From NCBI GenBank assembly GCA_021904315.1, contig CM038919.1, positions 20,191,666 through 20,255,665 of the forward strand: a stretch of 64,000 nt of DNA, read 5' to 3'. Below the pieces are notes generated by a model. That model did not search any database, was not told the DNA's origin, and saw nothing but the letters and a program-made list of their open reading frames with translations. Below are positions 37,501 through 63,500 of this stretch, one piece after another (the stretch's first letter is position 1; every line of letters starts with the position of its first letter). A program made the position numbers and the translations under genes. This stretch comes from Sphagnum magellanicum (Eukaryota > Streptophyta > Sphagnopsida > Sphagnales > Sphagnaceae).

Positions 37501-40500
37501 TCTATCCCCTTTAAGTTGTTTATTAAGTTGTATTTCACTTGAGGCCAGTCAGGTGGAAATGTTAATACCTAAGTTTGATTTTGATTCTATTTAAGAGTCT
37601 GATAGAAATGAAAACTAAATAAAGATGTATTAGGACTACATCTTAGAAATCTTTCAAGTACATCATTTGTGCCTGAAGATTATTCTACATACTAACTTAA
37701 TATTGTCATGGCGAAATGTTATTATTAATTATGGGCTTGTATTTCCAATATATCAATAAATCACATCTAATTCTACATCCCCTTTCCCTTCTCTACAACA
37801 TAAAAGGATAATGCACTTAAAAAGGTTTACTAGGTCCTAAAATTAACTAAGCCTTGCATCAATTTAAATAAAAGAGTCTTCTACGCTAAAATATCCAAAG
37901 GATAATTCAACTTTTAATAATTATTACTTGGAGGTTTATCAAGATTCAAATCATTAATACTAAGGAAAATTATGGAACTCAAGCTTAACAATTTATGGTA
38001 TTATAATCCATGATTCACAGAACACAAAATTTATAATCCCTCAAACACATTGACACACCCTAGAGCAAATTCAACATCATTTATTTACAATTATTATCTT
38101 ATATTTAAAGTTCTCCTTCTTCAAAACAACACATTTGGGTTTATATTTGTTTGTTGCCATTCATTGCCAACTAGGTTTTGAAATGTTCCATATTTGAAAC
38201 AGTTTGTTTTCTAGGTCCCAAGTTGAAATGACCTTGATCATAATTAGGTGCAGAGCAACATTGCACCATTGTGTAAAATTTAGCAACTTCCAATTTTTTT
38301 TTTTTTGAATTGTTAATCAATAGACTCTATCATCCCCATTCCAATTTCTCCTTAACTATTTCCAATGTCTATTATACCTCACTCTTCATGATGTGACTTT
38401 TTTTAATTGTTTCATGTCATGTGGTCTTTGTTTCTTATTTCCAACTTGAGGAATTTCCCGTATTATCTATGTTAAACCTTAATTTCATATGGGTTATGAT
38501 GTTTTGTACTATTTCATGTTCTACTACCCTAGACCTTAGTTTTATATGGGGTTTGATTATTAATTTGATTTGCCAATGCAACTTGTGGAATGTTCACATA
38601 TAGTCAATTATGACTTTTTATTTATTCCTACCAAGTGTAAGTCATTCAAAGCCATTATATTTGTTTTGCAAATATTTTTCCTTGATTTTCGACCGAAAGA
38701 TAAAACTAATTAATGTTTTGCTTGAAGACATATAAAAACTTCTTTTGTCTACACAATAAAAATGTGGCTAGAAGAGTGAAAATGAATTATTACCCATAAA
38801 AAAGGAAAAAAAATTTGAACGAATTTCCAAAATCAACCAACATTCACAACCCAAATTTTGAATTATGAAAACAAAGTAAGGTATCATGTCCATTAAGCGA
38901 CTTTATCAATGAACATTCATTGTTGAACAACCATATTTAGACCAAAGTCTTTATCAGCTAGTATACTATGAGGTGATTTTCTATCCTTCTACTCCCAGTT
39001 CTATGAGGTGATTATATTCGAAACGTATGTTATTGGTGAAAGGAAAATGCGAAATGTATTTCTAGATATTGAATTACGTTTATATTTGAAAAATAAATAG
39101 TTTTCTTTTTATGCATCACTTATGATTTGTAATTGATAGATATATTTTCAAAGTTCAAACTCCCTAAATCCTAGAATTTTATGTTAAACTATCACCCACT
39201 TAAACCAACTTTTAAGGAGTTGACATAATGCTCAATTTGATAGCAGACCTCTAGTCACTCAAAACATTGTTGTCATCACATACATTAACCCAATTTAACT
39301 TGCATTAATTCATTGGAAAGTTAACTACAAGGCGTAACTATTTGCCAAATTTCAAACTTTGCACCTAAATCAAGAAAAAATTATGTTATAAAACCCAAGA
39401 GGTTTTATGAACAATCTCTAAAATTTCAAGCTCCAAATCTACCCCTATTCATTTCCATTCTTTCAAAGGTATTGTTATGATCCAATTTATTCTCCCTCTT
39501 TCCATCATCTACAAAGATTCATTACTTTTCTCTTCCCAAGGAAAGTTATAGGAATAAATTTTTCAAATATTCAAATCGGAAATCATGTCCAAAAATATAA
39601 ATACAAATTATTCAAATTCGTGCTTTTAAAGAAAAAGAGAAGGAAAACCCCAACTTGGTGGCCAATGTAAGGTTCCAAATTTGGTGACCCTTGGAATGTT
39701 CCATGCTTGGAGGTCAATGGGGAAGCATCTTTTTTGATGGCCAATGGAAGGTTCTAAGTTTGGTGGTGAATGAGGAAACATCTTACTTGGAGGCCAATGG
39801 AAGGTTCCAATGTTTGGTGGCCCTTGAAAGGTTCCAAATTTGATGGCCTTTGGAAGAAGAAAGAAAAACATCTTTTTCACCTCCTTCCACTTTTCACCCC
39901 ATAAAATTTTACTTTACCATGGTTTTAGACCATTGCTTCATTTCTTGCCTTCCTTTTCCTTGACCTATAAATTACAATCATGCATCTCGAGGTACCAAAT
40001 TTTCTACACATTCATCACCAAGTCAATTTTGATTGAAGATTTTTTCCCTTCCTTAAATTCATAACATCGTGCATGATTATGTCTTACAAGCTTCAAGTTG
40101 CATAAATCAACAAATCGCCACCCTGGGAATCATCCCTAAATTTGACACTAACCTAACAAGTTCGCGATGAAAATCCCAAATCACAAGAGATGCCCCTTCC
40201 TCTCAAAATCAAACCCCTTTAAGCTTGGTATTATCAAAATTTTCCGAACTTTCGTACCTTGGTGATTTTGTTGCAATTGACTTTGCTTCTAATAATGAAC
40301 CTGAAACTATCTGTGAAGTATTTTATAAAACTAAACACATTTTGCATGGTCTTCAAATCCCGATGTTGGACACTATCATTGGTTAGGCGGTTCGATTCGT
40401 TGACTGCCTCCTAACAACAAGGTGGATTATTTAATTCGCACCATTCAACACATATTAAATTTCATGTAATTATAAACTACCACAGTGGCATAAGCTAGGA

Positions 40501-40799
40501 TTCAACATGTATTTGTAATTCCTCCTTGAGTTTTTCCATAACTTGAATAAAACTCATTCATCATGAAACCATGTTATAATTGCCACCCTATCACCCTACT
40601 CATTTAAATTATTATGTTGTCTCACATTAATCTTACATGCTTATAATGTTTGAAAATTATTCTATATCCATTGGACCTTTCATTGACACCCTTTAATTGC
40701 TTCAAGAATCTCAAATTATCTTTGCTTACACAACTATCCACTAAATACTAGAATTGTTGAGAATTCAAACTCAACTAGTTAGGTTTCATTAGTTACTAA
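34501..40799. other. AT-rich intergenic DNA with unclassified repeat remnants
   Basis: No gene recognised. About 37.36-37.52 kb and 40.34-40.49 kb are diverged relatives: ATTATCGTTGG, then CTCGCACCATTCGTCGCATT and CAATTGTGATC, against ATCATTGG, TTCGCACCATTCAACACAT and GTAATTATAAAC. This suggests two copies of an old unclassified element (translation like LARTIRRILEFL). At 39.66-39.85 kb GGCCAATGGAAGGTTCCAA is repeated in several diverged copies. Confidence 0.35.
39655..39850. repeat. Degenerate tandem repeat, GGCCAATGGAAGGTTCCAA
   Basis: Units of roughly 25-40 bp containing TTGGTGGCC / AATGGAAGGTTCCAA recur about five times between 39655 and 39850. Confidence 0.65.
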
Positions 40800-41935
40800 T
40801 GTCGCAACCCCACTTTGGCCAAGTGTGGGGGTGAAGCCTAACACTTGGAAAAGTTGGAGTTTGGGAGTCTTCCGGGACTCCCGAATGTTCAGAGCTCGAC
40901 AGCAAGGGGAAAAACACCTCGCATTGGGGTGTTCTTGGTGTCATTGGAAAGGTCTTGAAACGTAGATATCGAAAATGCCCTCGCATTGGCAATTCGAACA
41001 TCTATAGCCCAAGTTATGGGCAAAAGAAGGGCCGGGAATCAAACTGGCAGTTTGACTCCCGACCACTAAAAGTCGGGAATCGACCTCTTCCCGACGTTCG
41101 ATTTGAGCGTGCGACATGGCGTTGGAAAGATCTCGACGAGGGCTACAACGTTGCTTCAGACCTTGACGCGATCGGAGGTCAGGGCGAGAAGATATGACCT
41201 CCCAAAGTCCCGAGACTCCAACCGAGACGATTTCGGGACGATTTCAGGACAATTTCGGGACTCCAACTTGGGAGTCCCGGGAATTTGTGCCATTTGGATG
41301 TAGCCTCGGTGGCGAGCTGCAGAGAATACTATATGGGGGAAGGTGGTGGCTTCCCCCGAGTCCGGGCCGTGGTGAGTCTTGTGTGTCCAAGTGCCCGTGG
41401 CAAGTCCCAACACCAAAGGGTGTCCCGAATGCTAAACTAACCTCGTGGGGTTGGTTTTTGGATGCAGAATCACACAAGCTAAGCTAGTCCCTCTTCCTAG
41501 TCTAATCCCGGGGCTCCCAACTCGTCCCTCTACCCCTTTCTAGAGTTGGAAGCCGGGAGCGTGCTACCAAGTTCAACTTTCCGCAACTTGACTTTGTGAA
41601 GCCCTCAAGTGGGTTTCACCCCGTGACTTGGGAGCGCGTCACTAGAGTAGGAAAGTAACTAGGTTACTTTCACAAAGTTGAATTACTTTCGTTACTTATT
41701 TTAGTTTGGTTATTTGTGGTTTGGTCTTGTAATTAAATACCTTGGTGTTGATGGTTTGGTTCTCTTTTCTTCATTACACAAGTTTGTGTATTTCATGTGA
41801 CAAGAACCTTGGAGAGTTCTTGATGTTGTGTTTTGTGTTGTGAGCATTATGTTGTAGTTTCCTTTCAATAAATATTTATGTTTGCACTTGAGTAGATCTC
41901 CTATTTGTTAACAAGAACAAAACCAACATTTTTTT
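40800..41935 (+). mobile_element. GC-rich LTR-like element, copy B
   Basis: Starts TGTCGCAACCCC. It shares with A and C the blocks CATTGGAAAGGTCTTGAA, CTCGCATTG, GTTGGAAAGATCTCGACGAG, TTGCTTCAGACC, a TATA-like ATACTATATGGGGG near 41325, GGTGGTGGCTTCCCCC, GTCCGGGCCGTGGTGAG and a GTGAGT...TGCAG segment (41372-41467). It continues past C into an AT-richer tail with AATAAA near 41867, so it may be the longest copy. The right end (near ACCAACA, 41935) is a guess. No protein-coding frame is supported. Confidence 0.6.
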
Positions 41936-42428
41936 AAACATTATAAATTTTGTTGTTTACTTTTAACCCCAACCCTTTACAAACTTTTCACCTCAAATCA
42001 TGCAATTAAAGTTTTAAAACTATGATTATTAGCTTTTGTTGATGAAAAAAAAATCGAATTCACAAAAAAAAACCTCACACATCCATGCACACCCATCATT
42101 CCTCAATCCTAACATGAAATTGTTAAAGACCCCTAATAGCGTTATCATGCCCCAATATCCCGAATGAAATTCTTGAAAATTGAAACCATCGTGCATGGCT
42201 GTGTCGATAGGGCTGACATATACCTACATGGAAAACAAGAAAACAAATAAGGTCAAATATGCCACAAGAAAGGTTTACTTGGATACCACCATGACAAGGG
42301 ATTTTAATTATTAAATGGTATTAAAACACACTTGATGGGACTTATATGACAATACCTTTCTCCTATTCAAGTAATGGTTCATCATAAGGCCTATGTTAGG
42401 GATAAGGCATTGAACAACAAACTTATGA

Positions 42429-43413
42429 TGTCGCAACCCTAGCCTTGGCTCACGACCAAGGCAAGGGGGTTGCAAGGGTGCGGGCCAAAAGGAAGCCCGA
42501 GAGTCACATCAAGACTCCCGGGAGTGCAAGAAAGTGTGAGGGAGTGGACCCACACACTCCCAAGGCAACTCCCATGTTGGGAGTTGGTGAGAGTTAGAGT
42601 CCCAAAAGGACTCCCGAAACTTCAGAGCACGTTTTGAGGGGTCAAAACTCAATGGCTTGGTGCGCTCTTTATATCAATGGAAAGGTCTTGAAGTGTAGAT
42701 GTCTAAAATGGGCTCGCATTGCTCATTTGGACATCTGAAACGCAAGTTATGGTCAAAAGAAGGCCCGGGAGTCGAACTCGCGGGAGTCCGCCAGTTTGGA
42801 CTCCCGGGCACTAAAAGTCGGGAATCGACCCGAAATACTTGGCTGCTGAGAACGTGCGACATACCGTTGGAAAGGTCTCGACGAGATCTACAACTTTGCT
42901 TCAGACCGCGCCGTCATCGGAGGTCTGCTCCGAAAGTTATGCGCGTTCAAAGTCCCGGGAGTCCCGCTGGGCGGGATTTCGGGACTCCCGCGCGGGAGTC
43001 CCGGGACTCCCGGGACAAAATGTCCATTTGGGTGCCACCCCCGCGACGTGGCACAGAGTATACTATAAGGGGGAAGGTGGTGGCTTCCCCCAAGTCCGGG
43101 CCGTGGTGAGTCTTGTGTGTCCGTGTTGCCCGTGGCTCGTCCTAGCACCAAATGTGCTCCAACTATGTTCTAACCACTTTGTGTGGTTCCATGCAGGCCC
43201 GTGTGAGTGAGTGAAGCTTGTCAACTCTTCCTAGTCCCATCCCGGAGCTCCAACACGCCCCTCTACCCCTCCAAGTGTTGTGAGCTAGGGAGCGCCTCCC
43301 GACCACTCCCACTTCCGCTGTCTCTCACTTGGACTCACATTTGAGTCCTTCGAGTGGTTAGGAGTGCGTCATATGACCCATGACACTTTTGTGTTCCCAT
43401 CTGAGGTGAAAGA
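42429..43413 (+). mobile_element. GC-rich LTR-like element, copy C, inside the Mutator-like element
   Basis: Starts TGTCGCAACCCTAGCC and follows copy A closely through GGAGCTCCAACACGCC. The right boundary is near the A run at 43415, where Mutator-like coding sequence resumes. It has a 22-bp perfect palindrome (42981-43002, arms GGGACTCCCGC), a TATA-like ATACTATAAGGGG near 43060, and an intron-like GTGAGT...TGCAG segment (43106-43196). Confidence 0.65.
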
Positions 43414-43429
43414 CTCAACAAAAAAAAAG

Positions 43430-43934
43430 TTGATGAATTACAAAAAACACCTCAAGGATCCTATCAGTGTCAAAATGTGAGTTTTGAAAAGCCCTAATTC
43501 AATTTTTTATTATGTCCAACATGTCCTTTTGGACTTGAATCTATCAAACCAAGATGATACATTATTCACGCTCAAAATTCAAATGCCATGGCAATTTGAA
43601 ATTATAAAAAAATTTGGAAACCAAAGTTTAGTTTCATTTGATGGAACCTTTGGAACAAACCAAAACAAAGTATGTTTTCTTCTTTTGTTGAATGAAATGT
43701 AGTGACAAAATCATTGATTAGGAATGTAGTGTGCATAATATTTGTTTGATGTTTTTTGTAGTACACTTTGTATACCTTGATGGTGTTTAATGAATGGCAA
43801 AATGGCATACTAAGTGCTTTCATTGCCATTGGAAAAAGTTGGGAGATTGATTTGTGCACCCAATTCTCCAAGCATTATCAAGACGATTACTAATCAATTG
43901 GATGCCCAATGTTATCATTATGGACGATGTGTAA
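43430..43934 (+). pseudogene. MULE transposase, N-terminal/DDE part
   Basis: Conceptual plus-strand readings give PNSIFYYVQHVLLDLNL, then FTLKIQMPWQFEIIKKFG, NQSLVSFDGTFGTNQNK, YTLYTLMVFNEWQNGIL and WMPNVIIMDDV. SFDGTFGTNQNK holds the first catalytic Asp and IMDDV probably the second. The reading is interrupted by a stop after KM (43479) and by a break after LLLLNEM. It ends at GATGTGTAAGC, a good splice-donor-like site. Confidence 0.75.
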
Positions 43935-44571
43935 GCTAAAATTAATGTTTGAAGGTAAAAACATTTGGGTTCAACAATATTTTACCACTACACCAAAACA
44001 AGGCATCCATGACTTGATCATATACAATTAGCGTTTCAATTTAGTCATGGAGTAATATATGTTTTACAACTATGCCATTTTTATGATTGTAGTCATTTTC
44101 ATGACTACACAACTCTTTAACTATAATCATTTTTTAAAAATTACTAGGTGTACCATTGACCTTATTTGACCAAAATTTCAAAATTGGACACCATGGTGAG
44201 GGACTTACATTTGCAAATTCAAACCATGGCTCACCCTTGAAAAAATAATGCATGGTTATTATCATGTTTATTGGATCCAATGGGTTTTGTAATGTATTTA
44301 AAATTTCATATATATAATTTGGTCTAATATTAAATCCACAAATTTCAACCTACCTTTGATCTAATGATATGTCTAATATATTTTAGAATAAATATTACAT
44401 ATATTTTTATAACATTGAATTTATCTGAAACTTTTTATTATATTATGGTTTTCTTAGGGTCTTTTTTTTATCAAGCTTGTGGTTTTGAAACTTTAGTGAT
44501 TTTTCCAATATTTTTCTAACTTATTTATTTTTTAACAAAAAATGTTGAAATTATTCAAATTTTAACTATCA

Positions 44572-44802
44572 TCACAGGCATAACCATAAAAAAATCATTA
44601 AAAAAACATGAACTATTATTAACACATTATAAATTTGATGATTTCCACCAAGAATTTGATTGCCAGGTTGTGCTAATTCCATATGAATTAGTATTGAAAA
44701 ACATGTACCCATTACTCCAACAATGGCATTGAAAATACAATATAGAGTGCCTATATCTTTGTGGTTTATAGAAAACAACCATCTTTGTGTAAAATTATTC
44801 AT
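44572..44802 (-). pseudogene. cox1: cox1 5' fragment within the NUMT
   Basis: Cytochrome c oxidase subunit I, N-terminal 76 codons. [31 protein letters not shown] and [16 protein letters not shown] match plant mitochondrial COX1 with scattered changes (for example Arg to His before MELAQ, as expected from decay at CpG). Only the first of twelve membrane helices is covered. It carries the start codon and no promoter. Confidence 0.92.
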
Positions 44803-45091
44803 TTTATAACCCCATCTTTCAATAATATCATGCTTTGTTGAACTAATTTTGATTGATGTTCTTGCAATTTGGAAAAGCGAATTTTGTCACAAACTGTTTT
44901 GCGAAACAAGTTAGTATCTTCTCTTGTAGACTGATGCGAGAATGCTCATGAATAACTAACAATGTTTTAAACTTTTGCTTTATTTGTTGGCGCAACACAG
45001 CTTGCACTATATGTTTGCACTTAGGTGCACAATGCGTAATTATATCATTTATACATGATTCTCCGATTACTTGTGTACTTTGAAGCCACAA
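44803..45091 (-). pseudogene. atp4: atp4 (ymf39/orf25) 3' fragment within the NUMT
   Basis: [16 protein letters not shown], then [20 protein letters not shown], then in the shifted frame [20 protein letters not shown], fit the C-terminal part of the plant mitochondrial ATP4 protein as I remember the bryophyte sequences. Its TGA stop overlaps the cox1 ATG (ATGA at about 44799-44802). The assignment rests on memory of the family; cox1 next to it supports a mitochondrial origin. Confidence 0.72.
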
Positions 45092-45622
45092 TGTGAAAAT
45101 TCATCCCAAAAAATCATCAAGGGACTTTCACTCAAAGGTTATTTTGATGAATATCTTCCTTGAGCTTTTTGACATTAATAATGATATATATTCTTATTAA
45201 TTATATCCAATATATCTAAAGAAAAATTCACAATGTGCCCCAAAATGGAAAGTTGTCATATAATGAATAGCCAAGAATATAGAACTTGATCCCTATAATT
45301 TTTAGGAAACTTATGAAAAAATTTCAAATTATTTTCTTATGGAAAATTATTCCACCTTCCTTTTCATTATTTTTGAGAAGTGAAAAGAAATGGAAAAAGA
45401 AAATGCAAAAAAGGAACAAGGGTCAAGTTCTAGGGCTAGGGTGAAACTTATTTATTAAATTATTTGCTAAATATTTATAAAAACTATGACCATAAAAATT
45501 GGGGAAAATATTATAATATATATTAAATCACATTCAATAAAATGAAAACGCCTTTTCTTGAAAAGACAAAAAATTACTATTCATAACAAAATTAATGAGA
45601 ACTCTATGATATTAAAATATGT

Positions 45623-45649
45623 TGTGTGTGTGTGTGTGTGTGTGTGTGT
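45623..45649. repeat. (TG)n microsatellite
   Basis: About 13 uninterrupted TG units inside the CACTA-type element. Confidence 0.9.
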
Positions 45650-46884
45650 ATTAGTAATTATGAAATTTACATAATATGTTAATATTTTAAATAATCTTTT
45701 ACATACTATTATATATTTAATAAAATAAATAAATTGATTTTAATTTTAATTTTAATAATTTTAATACAACATTGATTGATTCAATATATCTTTAAAAGGC
45801 GGGGATATTTAATATTTTAAAAATATTTTCCCACAAAACCTTTTCAATGTGGATTTTAAATAGGCTTATTTACAAATCATTTTAAAGAAAAAAAATCTTC
45901 AAGACATCATTATTGTTGAAATCTATTAAATAGTGACAATTAAAATGCATTTTCAGTCAAATTATTTTATATATTTTTTCTTAAAAACACTATAGATGTG
46001 TACATCTTGGAAAAATATTTATGAATGAAGTTTCAATTTTTTCATTTGGACAAAGTATGAAAAAGATAAACAATGGTTAAAGTTGGATACTTTAATTTGT
46101 ATGGGACAAAAGATGATGTGGGATAGAGTTGGAATGTTTCCCTTTCACTAAATTTATCCCATATCTTTTGTCAAAAAAATTCACTTTGTAAACTATATAA
46201 CTATGTGGAAGAATGTTGTACATACAACACATACACTAGATTTAATATTCAAAGTGGAAGGAGCACTTGTGATGAACCAATGAAAAATGGCTTGTGACCA
46301 AAAAATTAAATAGGATCTTACGCACCTACCTATAATAGGCCTACCTACCTATGCCCACCTACCTAAGTTTTTAACTTAAGCTTTTAGGCTACCTAGGCTA
46401 TCTAACCTATGTAGCTAGCCTATGTAGTTCAAGTTGTAAGTTGCTAGCCTATGCAAGGTTTATAGGCTAGATTAATAAAATAGGTAGCTATATAGTCCAC
46501 ATGGCATGATTATGTTTAAATGCATGACTTCATTTCATAAGTCAATAAATATATGTTATTTAATTATATTTCTTAACTATAGTAATAAAAGTCACATGAC
46601 TGATGACATAAATTACTTTGACCATAAATATTACTAATGGCATAAGCCACGAATCTTGATTTGCTACATAATCATGTAGTAATATATGACCTATATTACC
46701 ATAAACAAAGTAATATATGAAGTAATATATGCCATGTTTTGGCGTAGTGTACCCATAATTGTCCTTGTGATATAAATCAAAGATCTTAAATATTTACTTT
46801 CATACCATCCCATGTTGGAGGATCTTTGTTTGTGAATCCAAACATCTTAGCTTAATTCTCAAGTTCCTTTTGTAGCAACATTTG

Positions 46885-47640
46885 GCCTAGACCCAAAGTG
46901 TTCTTATGCATGTGGCATGTTTGCAAAACATGGGTTGAGAATATAGTCAAAAGGATTATTAGCAGGAGGAGTAATCAAAAGTTTGATCTACTCCTAGAAG
47001 CATTGTGTATTTTCAAAAATATATACTTGATGTAGAACTTGTCTTGTGGGTAAAACAACAAATTGAACTATTGGCAACCAATTACTTTGATTCAACCCAC
47101 TTTTGTAAATACCTAAAAAAACAATGGTTGCATAAAGCAAGGATTTGGTGCATTAGAAATCAGAACATCCCCCATGTAGGGCCAAACACCAATGCGGTTG
47201 TGGAATCATTTCACAACAACATGAAGAAAATTTTGTATTATTTTGAAAAAGGCTTATGGGACATAGGATGAATTAGTTCATCTACAATGTTGTTGGTGAT
47301 CTCCTACTTCACTATTGGTACGGGGTGCAATGCCAAATTTTTGAGTATGCGAGAAACAAAAAAAAGAAGGAATTGTTGCCATTACCCTCTTGTGAACTTG
47401 TGATATTCTAGATATGAATGTCCTATTACACCCAAATGGGGAGGACATTGCATTTGTGGCATCCACCAACCACCTAAAAAAAATGTGGATTGTACACGCT
47501 CTAACTTTAGTATGGCCATAATGCCATTACCCCCTTGAAGCACAAGCCATTATTTGCAAGCATGTCATGAAATTTTTCAAGATGCCTCTTCCAAACATTG
47601 GTGATGGTTCAATTGTTAAAGAGATTGGTACTTCGCACAG
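46885..47640 (+). pseudogene. MULE transposase, C-terminal part with SWIM-like finger
   Basis: After TTTTGTAG at 46884 the reading SNIWPRPKVFLCMWHVCK continues TWVENIVKRIISRRSNQKFD with few breaks. The 47005-47271 frame contains QWLHKARIWCIRNQNIPHVG and NTNAVVESFHNNMK. Further on a Cys/His-rich SWIM-like segment ends ICKHVMKFF. These are standard blocks of plant SWIM-type MULE transposases. Confidence 0.75.
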
Positions 47641-47700
47641 GGTCGTGTAGGGTGGTGCAATTCCCAAACACAATAATATTCAATGTGGGCTTGGAGATGA

Positions 47701-50700
47701 TGATACCACAAACGAACAACCTAAACAAAAAATAATCTTATAGCTCACAAAACATCATGAATCCAACACATATGGAGACATAATTGACAAGGTCTTCTCA
47801 TACCTTAAAGTTGCGATTATGGAATTTCCACTTCTACAGTTGCATTTACTCTCAACATTGAAAGTTCTAAAAGGCAAACAACAAAACATTTTAATGCAGG
47901 GTGTTTTTAAATTGGCACACCTAGATACCACAACTTTGTTCCCATATGCAATAGGTGATAATGGTTTAAAAAGCCAAAGAAGATTGCTTGAATCCCCTAC
48001 CCAAATACACAACCATTTTAAGCATAAAACAACAAGGCATAGGCACATCTAAAATTTAGTACCTCAAGGTGGGGTAAATTTAAAGTTTCTTCAGTGATAT
48101 ATTGGGGTTTGCAATTATACCAAATCATGTCTATTGGAATATGAATACAATTATTAGCTTATCTACATTTTTGGGTGTTTTTGTTTAACACTTTATATTT
48201 GGGTTTCAACATTTTTTTGGGTTATCCTAGCTTGCAATCATAGCTCTACATGTTATAATTATTACAATGGAATCAAATAATGATTTTGTGCATTATTTAT
48301 GTTACATTATACAAGGAATTACATGAACATGTGATAAACATTATTGTCACCAAAAATGTAATAACAAACAATGTTTATAGGCTTTTACTTAAGCATCTCC
48401 CAATCTAATAAGTGTAACTCGGGGGCTTAAGTGTATGATTAGTATGGGAATATGATTATCTAGATTGAAAATGGTAAATTGTATGATCCACATTCTATGG
48501 TAAGCATTTTGTATTCAATGTTTTGAATCCGTTTTTCTTATGTAATCATTGCTTGTTATTGTTGTTCACATGTACCATTTTAAACATGTTGCATTACACC
48601 CAAGTGATAATATGTGTCTTACATCAAATCCCATACTGTAACTCACCCAAATTTACTTACATCATCTAGCTAACAACATTATAAAATTGCACATATGGAA
48701 GTAGTAGACCAATGATGCAACTATAACTACAACGTGGAAATCACATATGTATGTGACAAACCAATAATGCAACAACTACAACATAACAACCTTGGGTTCA
48801 AACAATCCATAGATTGGGCACAATTAATAAATTAGGTCTACTACTTGCAATAAATTATTGCCTTACACAACAAGGTGTATTCATGATTGGGTTACCAAAA
48901 AGGAATGACCTATATTTAAAGGATTACAAATGACAACTTTGGATTTTTGTTTATTTTACATTATTATAGTTGTAGTGGATTGTTGGCATTAATACAAATA
49001 TTTTAAAATAATTTGGATATTATGTAAATGTCATTTTGAGTCCTGTAAAGTAATTATATCAAATGTCTAAACTACACATTTTAAAAAAGGAATCAAAAGG
49101 AATGCATAAAGTCATACAATTGATTTCAAACTTTTGGTACCAAAAAAAAAAACCTTTATTTAATGAAAGTACATGTTCATTAGATGAAGTTGATGAAAAA
49201 CCAAATTATATGAAAATTTCGATTTTTTGAAATTTTAAAGGAAAGGCTGCAAGGAAAAGGAATCAATTTTAAAATCATTTGATAAAACAATTATGTTCAA
49301 TGAGTTCAAAATGTATAGCTTCAAGTGCAAGTCACATGTGTAGGAAATAATCTTGCCAAAGAACATGTTTGGTTATCCATTGGAACTCATTTCGAGAATT
49401 ATGCGTGTATGGCTATAAACCAAAATATTCATACACAATTATGTACCAATGTGAAAACTCACCACCACCACATGAATTATCTTAAATTAAATTATTCATT
49501 TTTTCACTTAAATTTGTTTCAAGTTAATGTTATTTGCAAAATATAGCCCCACAAAAGTCTTGGAATCCTTTTTCATTTTTTGGGAACCCCAATCATGAAT
49601 AAGCCCAACAACCACATAATGTCTAGCAATCTTGCAAAACATTTGGCCCAAATTTAAAGCAAAAAACATACATAGTGGAGATGGAAACATGTTAATGCTA
49701 TAGTGCAACCACAAACCAATGGCACCAAAAAAAATCAAAACATATGCACATCATCTAGACATCTTACTTTAAGACCTTTCTATATGTGACTTATTGTTTG
49801 AAAATAATAGGAGCTATATTTTTTCGTGTGGTTAGTTCGCTGCACTCCTATTATGATGTCAAATTGTGTTGAAGTAGATTGTAAACCTTTAGTTGGCATG
49901 TCCAACCCAATTGTCCACCTTATCTATGATCACCTTGATTTTTGTAGCCTACATCTAAGATTGCAATTTACAATGTGTCAAAAGCTTGAAAGGTTGCAAC
50001 CTTTGAAAACATGTTAGATGTCACCTACATTCACCAAATCCAATAGGTTAGGTTGCATTATTGAATGTGCTACAAGCACATATAGATCTACCAAGATTTC
50101 AAACATTATCATACTTAAATGCTACCAAACTTATTCGCACACTTCCATTTGCAATAGGAGGTTATGACAGTCATAACATAAAACCACATTCATAGTTTGA
50201 CTCTTGTTGTGGCTTGCTTCCAAGTGGCATTTCGAAACATGGGACGTTACTTGACAATCGACAATTTGGCAAAAAACCAGTGCACCAATGTAGACAAGAA
50301 GATGTTTTCAATCTTCATAGGGTCATAGTGTAGGAGTTCTTTCATATTCATTATAATCATGCTCTAATGGTTGGCATACTACACTAGGATTATGAGGTCC
50401 TTGACATATAGTGGGATTTCCAAATTCCTTTGGACAAATTGCAACACATTCAATTTTGATTCCCCTCTTTCTTTGGACCAATTTTTTATAATGTCTTAGA
50501 GGTGAGAATGGGTGATGTACACTTGCTGTGAATCAATGTGCAAGTGTGAAAACCACAACCTGAAAAAGTCCATGGCATCCATGCTTAGGTGCTTGGTGGG
50601 GTTGTCCAGATGGGAAATATTCCACATTAAACCTCAATTTTGCATAATGTTACAAGATCTAAAACAAGTGCGTTACCTCTTTGGTACCCCCCTTGCTAAT

Positions 50701-60535: not shown

Positions 60536-63500
60536 CACTACTAGAATTCCTATACTTTTTACTATAATTTTTTGGTAAAAAAGACCCATTTTGGGCAAAC
60601 GTCAAAAAACCTCCCAACCATTTTTGACAAATCGTTTTGAATCTGTGACTAGGGCCATGTACTTTTTGACCAAGCCTAAGTTGGCATTTTTGATTAGTCA
60701 TTTCGATTAGTACTTTTGATTAGTCGTTTTGATGAGTATTTTTGATTAGTCATTTTAACTAATTAATATAATAGTCAAATGAATTTTTGATTGGTCAAAC
60801 ACCATTTTGATTAGGCAAATGTCATGTGGCATTTAAACAATGGCCACTTAAGTTAACCCACGTGGCATTTAAACATTGACCACTAGGTTATGCCATGTGG
60901 CATTTAAACATTGGCCACTAGTTATGCCACATGGATAGAACCTAAATAACCTACGTTAGATTAGATACCTACTCCTAAGGTCCTTATGTTTAGGAATTTA
61001 CAATCTAAACTCCTAGGCCTAGGAGCTTATAACTAACTAGGTATAGAAGCCTAAAGTAGGTTTGGGCAACCTAAACTATGACCTTTACTAGGCTTCCATG
61101 TACACCACCTAAATTAAACTTACACCTAAATGACTTAGGTAGGAAAATCTTATTTCATTTTGAATTTGGCCTTTACTGTGAGCAATTTCAGTTGGCTCAT
61201 CCCAAATGGCCTTCTTTTTAAAAATATTTTTAATGTTTTGGATGCTTATGGTGCATCTATTTATATTGTTCATCATTTGGAAAGGATGACAAAAATATGG
61301 GACAAATTTTTGGGAGAGAGAAACATTTTCACGTCCACACAGCACTAGAACCTTTTAGTTCACACAACATTATTCCTAAATAATTATGTAAGATACATAA
61401 ATTAAGTAAATAAATAAATAAAGAGGTAGGTAAATATGTATATTAATTAAATTAAAATAAAAATTAGCAATAGTTAATGTCTAGTTATTTAGTTATAATT
61501 GATAATTACAATCATATTATAAATCTTTGAATTATATATGATATCAAAATAGTTATAATGTATTATATTGTTGATCGATCCTTACAAGTTTGACCTAATT
61601 GATTATATATTATCAACAATGTATTTGTAATATTTAATATTTAACTATTTAATTACACATTCATTAATGTATTTTAGGTAAATAACTAGTTAACAAACTA
61701 ATAATTTATCATAGGTATATAATTGGCTTACCCTAGCCTATATAACTAGGTTACCTATAGGGCAAAATATAGGTAAATAGGTGGAATATAGGCATGGTAT
61801 GTATAAATAAATACACCTACGTATAAATTAATTGTATTTAAATAATTTTGCCACATACTTACATTACATAAGTTAGGTGGCTAATTTAAACTAAGAAATA
61901 TTAATTATGGCAAAACTAATGATTAGTAAAATAATGTTTAAACCAACCAAAAATTAAAAATAATTATGGAAAAATAACCATGGCTAAACTAAATATGGTT
62001 CAATTAGCTACATTTAAATAAATATGTTGCAATTAACCATGAATATAATAAATAAAGCTAAACTAACTAATGAATAAATATGGCTAAACTAACCATAAGT
62101 AAAATAAATACGGCCAAATTAACCAATGAATAAATATTTTATGATTACACTAGAAATGATTGAACTAACCATGAATAAAATAAATATGGCCAAATTAACT
62201 AAAGAATAAATAATTTATGGTTAAATAAACCGTGGTTAAACTAACCATGAATAAAATCAATATGCCTAAACTAACCAATAAATAAATATTTTATGGTTAA
62301 ATCAACTATGCATAAATTAATTATGGCTACAATATTTTTGGTAAATTTAGCCATGGCTAAGCTAAAAATGGTTACATTAACCATGAGTAAATAAATTTGG
62401 CTAAACTAACTACTAATAAAGTTAATATGGTTACATCAACTAATGAATATATATTTTATGGCAAAAATATTTATGCAAAAATTAATTTTAGTTCAAATAA
62501 ACAAGAATGAAATAATTATGGCAAAATTAAACATGGCCAAACTAAAAATGGTTAAACAAACCATGAATAAATAAATAAATATGGTTAAACTAATGACTAA
62601 TAAAGTTAATATGGTCAAACTAACTAATGAATAAATATTTAGTGGAAAACCAATTATGACTAAAATAAACACGACTGAAATAATCATGATAAAATTCACC
62701 ATGACTAAATTAAAAATGGTTAAACTAACCATGAGTAAAAAAATCTGGCTAAATTAACCAACAATAAATTTAGTATGGTTAAATTAACTAATGAATAAAT
62801 ATTTTATGGCAAAACCAATTATGAAAAAATTAATTATGATGAAAATAAAAATGAATGAAATAATTATGGTTAAAATAAATTTTAATAAAATAATTATGAA
62901 AAATTTAAACATGGCTAAACTATGAATGGTTACACTAACCATGAGTAAATAAATTTGGCTAAACTAATGACTAATAAAATTAATATGGGTAAAATAACTA
63001 ATGAAATTTTTTTTTATGGCAAACCAATTATGCAAAAATTAATTATGAATAAAATAATGATGAATGAAATAATTATGGCTAAAATCAAAATGGTTAAAAT
63101 AGTCATGGCAAAACCAACCATGGATAAATTATTAACCATGAATAAAATGAATTTGGCTAAAACAAACATGAGTGAAATAATTATGGCTAAAATCATTTTA
63201 AAAAATAATTATGGCAAAACCAACCATGGTTGAATTAAAATTTTAGTTTTAAATTAATTATGGGTCTATTGATTATGGTTAAATTTATTAGGGTAAAATA
63301 ATAATATGTTAAAAATAAATATAGTTAGTTTAGTTATGCTTATAGTAACCATGGTTAAATTCATTATGGCAAAACCAATAATGGCCCAAGTAGTAATGAT
63401 TTAATTGATGATGTTAAATTATTTATCATGGCTAAATTTACTAATGCTAAACCAATTATTGTTAAATTGACCATGGTTAGATTAATTATGGTTAATTTTA

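Follow-up and report, generated by a model that had tools for sequence, protein, structure and literature searches.

Mitochondrial DNA inside a CACTA-type element of Sphagnum magellanicum: a probable end-joining event in a resident transposon copy

A transposon that encloses a piece of mitochondrial DNA (mtDNA) raises the question of whether the organellar sequence has travelled as cargo or was inserted into an element that was already there. The locus in question lies in a 64,000-nucleotide stretch of the Sphagnum magellanicum genome (C13:20191666-20255665, hereafter the window), where the element is flanked by dispersed repeats on a 23-Mb contig. A preliminary description of the sequence had offered two alternatives, namely that a CACTA element captured an existing mitochondrial insert (NUMT), or that mtDNA integrated into a resident CACTA element, and had proposed that copies with the same ends be compared. 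We carried out this comparison in the window's own assembly, which comprises 438,994,042 bases in 31 contigs. The mitochondrial piece is missing from all 23 of the 26 fetched copies that span the insertion point, pointing to a later NUMT insertion. We consider it very probable that an mtDNA fragment was end-joined into a break in a resident non-autonomous CACTA copy, which now lies within an older dispersed repeat.

The host element and its surroundings

The non-autonomous CACTA-type host element spans positions 43986..46749 on the plus strand and measures 2764 bp with the insert and 2250 bp without it. Its terminal inverted repeats were located at 43986..44010 (plus strand, starting CACTACACCAAAAC) and 46725..46749 (minus strand, finishing GTTTTGGCGTAGTG). 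When the last 20 bases are reverse-complemented, they agree with the first 20 at 18 positions, exactly as first described for its CACTAC ends. Copies of a TAC target-site duplication adjoin the element on the left (43983..43985) and on the right (46750..46752), where relatives of the surrounding repeat have one triplet. The CACTA superfamily is recognised here from the CACTA...TAGTG inverted termini and the 3-bp target-site duplication, and the assignment is supported by other genomic copies.

At least 32 other places in the ~439-Mb genome were found to hold element sequence, some of it partial (40 of 762 candidates scored; grouped by eye), and copies from 26 of the 32 were fetched for comparison. 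An end was called recognisable at 17 or more of 25 bases, a threshold chosen after the table had been viewed; by this measure, and counting by eye, 15 of the 27 rows (the window plus the 26 fetched copies) pass at both ends. The TAC duplication that had been reported for the window has exact 3-bp counterparts in other copies: 13 of the 15 clean-ended rows, the window included, show one, where chance would give 1 in 64, as opposed to 0 of the 12 rows with poorer ends (13 of 27 overall). Three row pairs among the clean-ended copies have common flanks and, judging from these, are probably duplicated loci; about 11 of 12 independent sites, grouped by eye, then carry the duplication. A degenerate 25-base end pattern gave 32 exact matches in the genome and its reversed control gave none. 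Since both the duplications and the ends recur in sibling copies, the element termini are more than chance, and the concern that the terminal repeats might be coincidental falls away.

Pfam scanning in the element covered the frames of the insert, and the longest stop-to-stop frame was found to be 104 aa, the one holding the cox1 piece, in keeping with the reported lack of a transposase within the element. A comparison by eye of end-pattern matches with Transposase_21 places did not identify a same-ended autonomous partner; among the matches listed (150 of 657 candidates scored), the Transposase_21 place closest to an exact end-pattern match was ~86 kb away. Overall, the element behaves as a non-autonomous CACTA family.

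The element is itself nested. An older dispersed repeat precedes it at 43372..43985 (plus strand), where it is 72-80% identical to three relatives beside their empty site (L074-L076), and resumes at 46753..48750 (plus strand, right end approximate), with 72-77% matches on C7, C13, C5, C2, C1, C6 and C3, the longest of which stop between query positions 2002 and 2118. Three of the relatives, on C7, C5 and C2, are uninterrupted at the CACTA site and have one triplet instead of two, a single TAC in L074 and a single CAC in L075 and L076. From these three empty sites we conclude that the CACTA element inserted into the older dispersed repeat. The nesting originally proposed is therefore upheld, while the label given to the outer repeat, MULE, is unconfirmed. 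MULEs are marked by terminal inverted repeats and a duplication of roughly 8-11 bp, and the left end of the outer repeat is lost at 43371 beside an LTR-like repeat. Of five window pieces scanned with the MULE transposase profile PF10551, one gave a weak match (19 residues, E 0.33); ten pieces from the relatives gave none, and the badly degraded state of the pieces leaves room for the label. None of 147 PF10551 places (150 of 294 candidates scored) was seen by eye to overlap the ranges of the relatives.

Several further repeats were observed in the window. The LTR-like sequence at 42500..43371 (start set by the query) is a near-identical dispersed repeat, probably LTR sequence, that has at least 40 other places at 99-100% and interrupts the outer repeat at 43372. 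Several of its matches are paired about 6.28 kb apart, as would be the LTRs of a young retrotransposon; no second near-identical copy was found inside the window, and here it appears solo or truncated. A further dispersed repeat, some 620 bp long, lies at 48874-49498 (77-85% to at least 31 places), and overlapping self-matches of 66-70% at 61889-63494 suggest a degraded tandem array. Rfam gave no match at gathering thresholds in 40000-50000.

The mitochondrial insert and its empty sites

The insert occupies 44565..45078 on the minus strand and consists of the 3' part of atp4 followed by the 5' part of cox1. Its identity as an atp4-cox1 piece was borne out, its length being 514 bp and not the 530 bp first given. 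A cox1 N-terminal fragment was recognised at 44566..44802 (minus strand) from its translated frame; the minus-strand stop-free piece 44575-44886 matched Pfam COX1 with E 2.2e-7 and 30.6 bits, under the curated cut-off of 34.8. The atp4 C-terminal fragment at 44799..45078 (minus strand) is distributed over two translated frames, with a match above the cut-off to Mt_ATP-synt_B, the Pfam family of atp4, in the minus-strand piece 44846-45100 (E 4.9e-5); a third minus-strand piece, 44802-44945, had no Pfam match. The closest relative, L037, which is less decayed, gave E 1.9e-24 for COX1 and E 2.5e-17 for Mt_ATP-synt_B. The atp4 stop overlaps the cox1 start codon in the sequence ATGA at 44799-44802, and the insert is collinear with longer NUMTs bearing atp4 and then cox1. 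Its mitochondrial derivation was judged from Pfam and from these longer NUMTs. With both genes cut short and atp4 divided between two frames, the insert is unlikely to have a function.

Among the 26 fetched sibling copies, 23 were informative (L066, L068 and L071 were not), and in all 23 host sequence is present left and right of the insertion point while the insert is missing. The spacing is kept in 20 of them, within one base in 9 and within 7-41 bases in 11. In the remaining three, L055, L060 and L065, a loss of 129-330 host bases to the left of the point makes the absence of the insert weaker evidence. The match of L071 begins exactly at the same point, which could have indicated another insertion there, but directly before it comes left-hand sequence of the family with weak similarity, and this candidate was rejected. 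The three nearest copies, L034, L035 and L036 (83-90% identical per aligned block), read AATTTTA-TTTGAA without interruption, whereas in the window 514 bases separate AATTTTA from TTTGAA. Compared with these copies, the junctions are base-exact, without target duplication, without lost host bases and with no more than 2 bp of microhomology. At the right junction, TT is common to host and mtDNA; the left has 0-1 bp, base 44565 being either an altered mtDNA base or a one-base filler.

Mitochondrial derivation, absence at the pre-insertion site in nuclear DNA and junctions of end-joining type together characterise the insert as a NUMT, and of the two original alternatives it is integration of mtDNA into a resident CACTA element that gains support. 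NUMTs have been described as arising by non-homologous end-joining (NHEJ) with 1-7 bp of microhomology or blunt joins, often with no deletion (PMC2820518, PMC7037861). We propose that a CACTA-family copy would have suffered a double-strand break, and that a linear 514-bp mtDNA fragment, from the 3' end of atp4 to the 5' end of cox1, would have been joined into it by end-joining, the repair presumably following NHEJ or microhomology-mediated joining. The insert would then have decayed by C>T/G>A change. Entry of the NUMT at the element's present site would be the simplest order of events.

Acquisition of host DNA by CACTA elements is documented (PMC8903248). A piece of an existing NUMT might have been copied into the element while a gap was repaired, or acquired when the element merged with a neighbour. 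On neither side of the insert is host sequence missing, replaced or duplicated, and no excess of C>T/G>A changes is shared with any of the ten NUMTs compared (out of the 16 others; L045 and L049, among the ten, are uninformative, see below). Capture of this Pack-CACTA-like kind appears to us highly unlikely.

Other copies of the mitochondrial piece

A search of the genome with 44560-45100 returned 17 candidate places, all of which were scored: the window and 16 others. Five longer NUMTs match the insert over its full length at 86-93%, the upper value being its top identity elsewhere in the assembly. Within about 1.5 kb on each side of the 16 other matches, no host-element sequence was found beyond matches of 31 bp or less, the largest of which, in L023, falls at a GT simple repeat. 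In the wider flanks, fetched for 14 of the 16, an element end occurs solely near L050, 2.2 kb off and directed away. L050, a 200-bp NUMT match, was rejected as a second carrier, because by match strand the interior of the nearby element faces away from the NUMT. The idea of an existing NUMT captured as travelling cargo is thus unsupported, with 0 of 16 other insert matches in the element and no excess of shared decay.

A more restricted form of the cargo idea is that the NUMT entered a CACTA copy elsewhere and that the element then moved once, by cut-and-paste, into the outer repeat. We treat this as a variant of the favoured reading and count its probability as a share of that reading's. The similar divergence of insert and host (p 0.54; for transversions p 0.29) is in its favour; scoring of all 17 insert places revealed no second carrier, and an additional step is required. 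We hold it to be rather unlikely. Were it true, organellar DNA would have been carried as transposon cargo in a moss.

The long NUMT relatives continue past both borders of the insert, and their bases there differ from those of the window; L037 and L038 share 1646 bp around the insert region at 95%, and L037 and L041 share 5003 bp at 89%. It follows from this extension beyond both borders that the ends of the insert are arbitrary cuts in mtDNA and not the ends of a mobile unit. A mobile element of 514 bp was considered and dismissed, since the apparent common borders are those of the query fragment itself and the relatives run on into flanking mtDNA.

A COX1 profile search of the genome gave 31 places, all on C1-C16, with the window at E 1.5e-4, under the cut-off; cox1 NUMTs are therefore numerous in this genome. 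No mitochondrial contig was seen in this search of the assembly. In L045 (C11), positions 2218-2493 directly adjoin the cox1 NUMT and are 96% identical to window 41638-41913, so that this NUMT too seems to border a repeat present in the window. L038, L039 and L040, on C16 and C1, have about 4.4 kb in common at 94%, with internal inverted matches, and are apparently a duplicated block of rearranged mtDNA. A large NUMT, or a duplicated one, is suggested at C5:3445775-3501532, where cox1 pieces lie in two sets separated by about 55 kb.

For the analysis of decay, the mtDNA reference state was a majority base call from the other NUMTs. The call was reset, by our choice, at four sites (three shared with L037 and one with L045) at which copies with less decay have the same base as the window. 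Against this reset call, 31 of 515 sites in the insert are changed (24 transitions and 7 transversions; K2P 0.063), and 23 of the 31 differences are C>T or G>A; 35 differences (28 transitions, 7 transversions) are obtained without the reset. By context, and using the uncorrected call, C>T/G>A changes affect 7 of 26 CG, 5 of 20 CHG and 11 of 133 CHH sites, as methylated nuclear DNA would be expected to show.

An assembly chimera of nuclear and mitochondrial reads, against which the preliminary description had cautioned, is very improbable: the 31 differences from the inferred mtDNA in 515 sites show a nuclear decay pattern, and no other place in the assembly matches the insert at more than 93%.

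The sites of decay shared with the ten NUMTs are about as many as chance would give (L041, 4 against 4.7 expected; L042, 8 against 7.9), with none shared with L037 against 0.7 expected; the highest excess is that of L043 (4 against 2.6, p 0.10), and L045 and L049, having no C>T/G>A decay, are uninformative within the ten. Sharing at chance level favours an origin from mtDNA itself, and we infer that the insert was derived directly from mtDNA and not from another NUMT. A very young NUMT as source would resemble mtDNA itself.

The host copy differs from the sibling majority at 128 of 2093 sites, and its terminal branch measures 0.051 (IQ-TREE) or 0.073 (FastTree). With the uncorrected call, the divergence of the insert (35/515) is like that of the host (128/2093; Fisher p 0.54), as it is for transversions (7/515 against 45/2093, p 0.29). 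Changes other than C>T/G>A make the insert look younger (12/515 against 85/2093, p 0.07, uncorrected), and C>T/G>A changes per GC site make it look older (23/180 against 43/515, p 0.10, uncorrected). Relative dating of insert and host element thus gave no significant difference. Because the two divergences are alike, the age of the insert may approach that copy's split from its siblings; it need be no older than this split, which agrees with the empty sites.

Comparison with known systems

We found no sign of the transposon multiplying or spreading mitochondrial DNA. The insertion is an event of an ordinary, well-known type, of which this case is a further instance. CACTA elements account for about 6.8% of Sphagnum genomes (PMC9946827), so some NUMTs are expected in CACTA by chance and a special process is unneeded. 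In Arabidopsis and sorghum, NUMTs and NUPTs have already been described as lying together with transposable elements (PMC7037861), and no new kind of system is therefore implied. Within the titles and abstract openings of the open-access literature searched, there was no report of a CACTA element with mitochondrial cargo, nor of NUMTs in Sphagnum, and the terms mitochond-, chloroplast, organell- and plastid are absent from the main text of PMC8903248. The locus provides, for a moss, a NUMT empty site resolved to the base, which is of modest use, and, because insert and host element occupy one locus, a possible internal clock.

The host shares with non-autonomous CACTA (En/Spm) elements its CACTA termini, inverted repeats, 3-bp duplications and many dispersed copies; for this family, no autonomous same-ended partner was identified among the matches listed. 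Pack-CACTA or Pack-TYPE elements (PMC8903248) resemble the window element in having CACTA ends that enclose foreign gene fragments. They carry their cargo in mobilised copies, whereas the foreign DNA here comes from an organelle, was detected in a single element copy and is inserted flush into an otherwise intact element, and no sign of capture driven by the element was seen. The closest likeness is to an end-joined NUMT, with which the insert has in common its arbitrarily cut mtDNA, its C>T/G>A decay and junctions that lack target duplication and deletion and have tiny microhomology. Nothing essential differs from such a NUMT; the insert happens to sit in a transposon.
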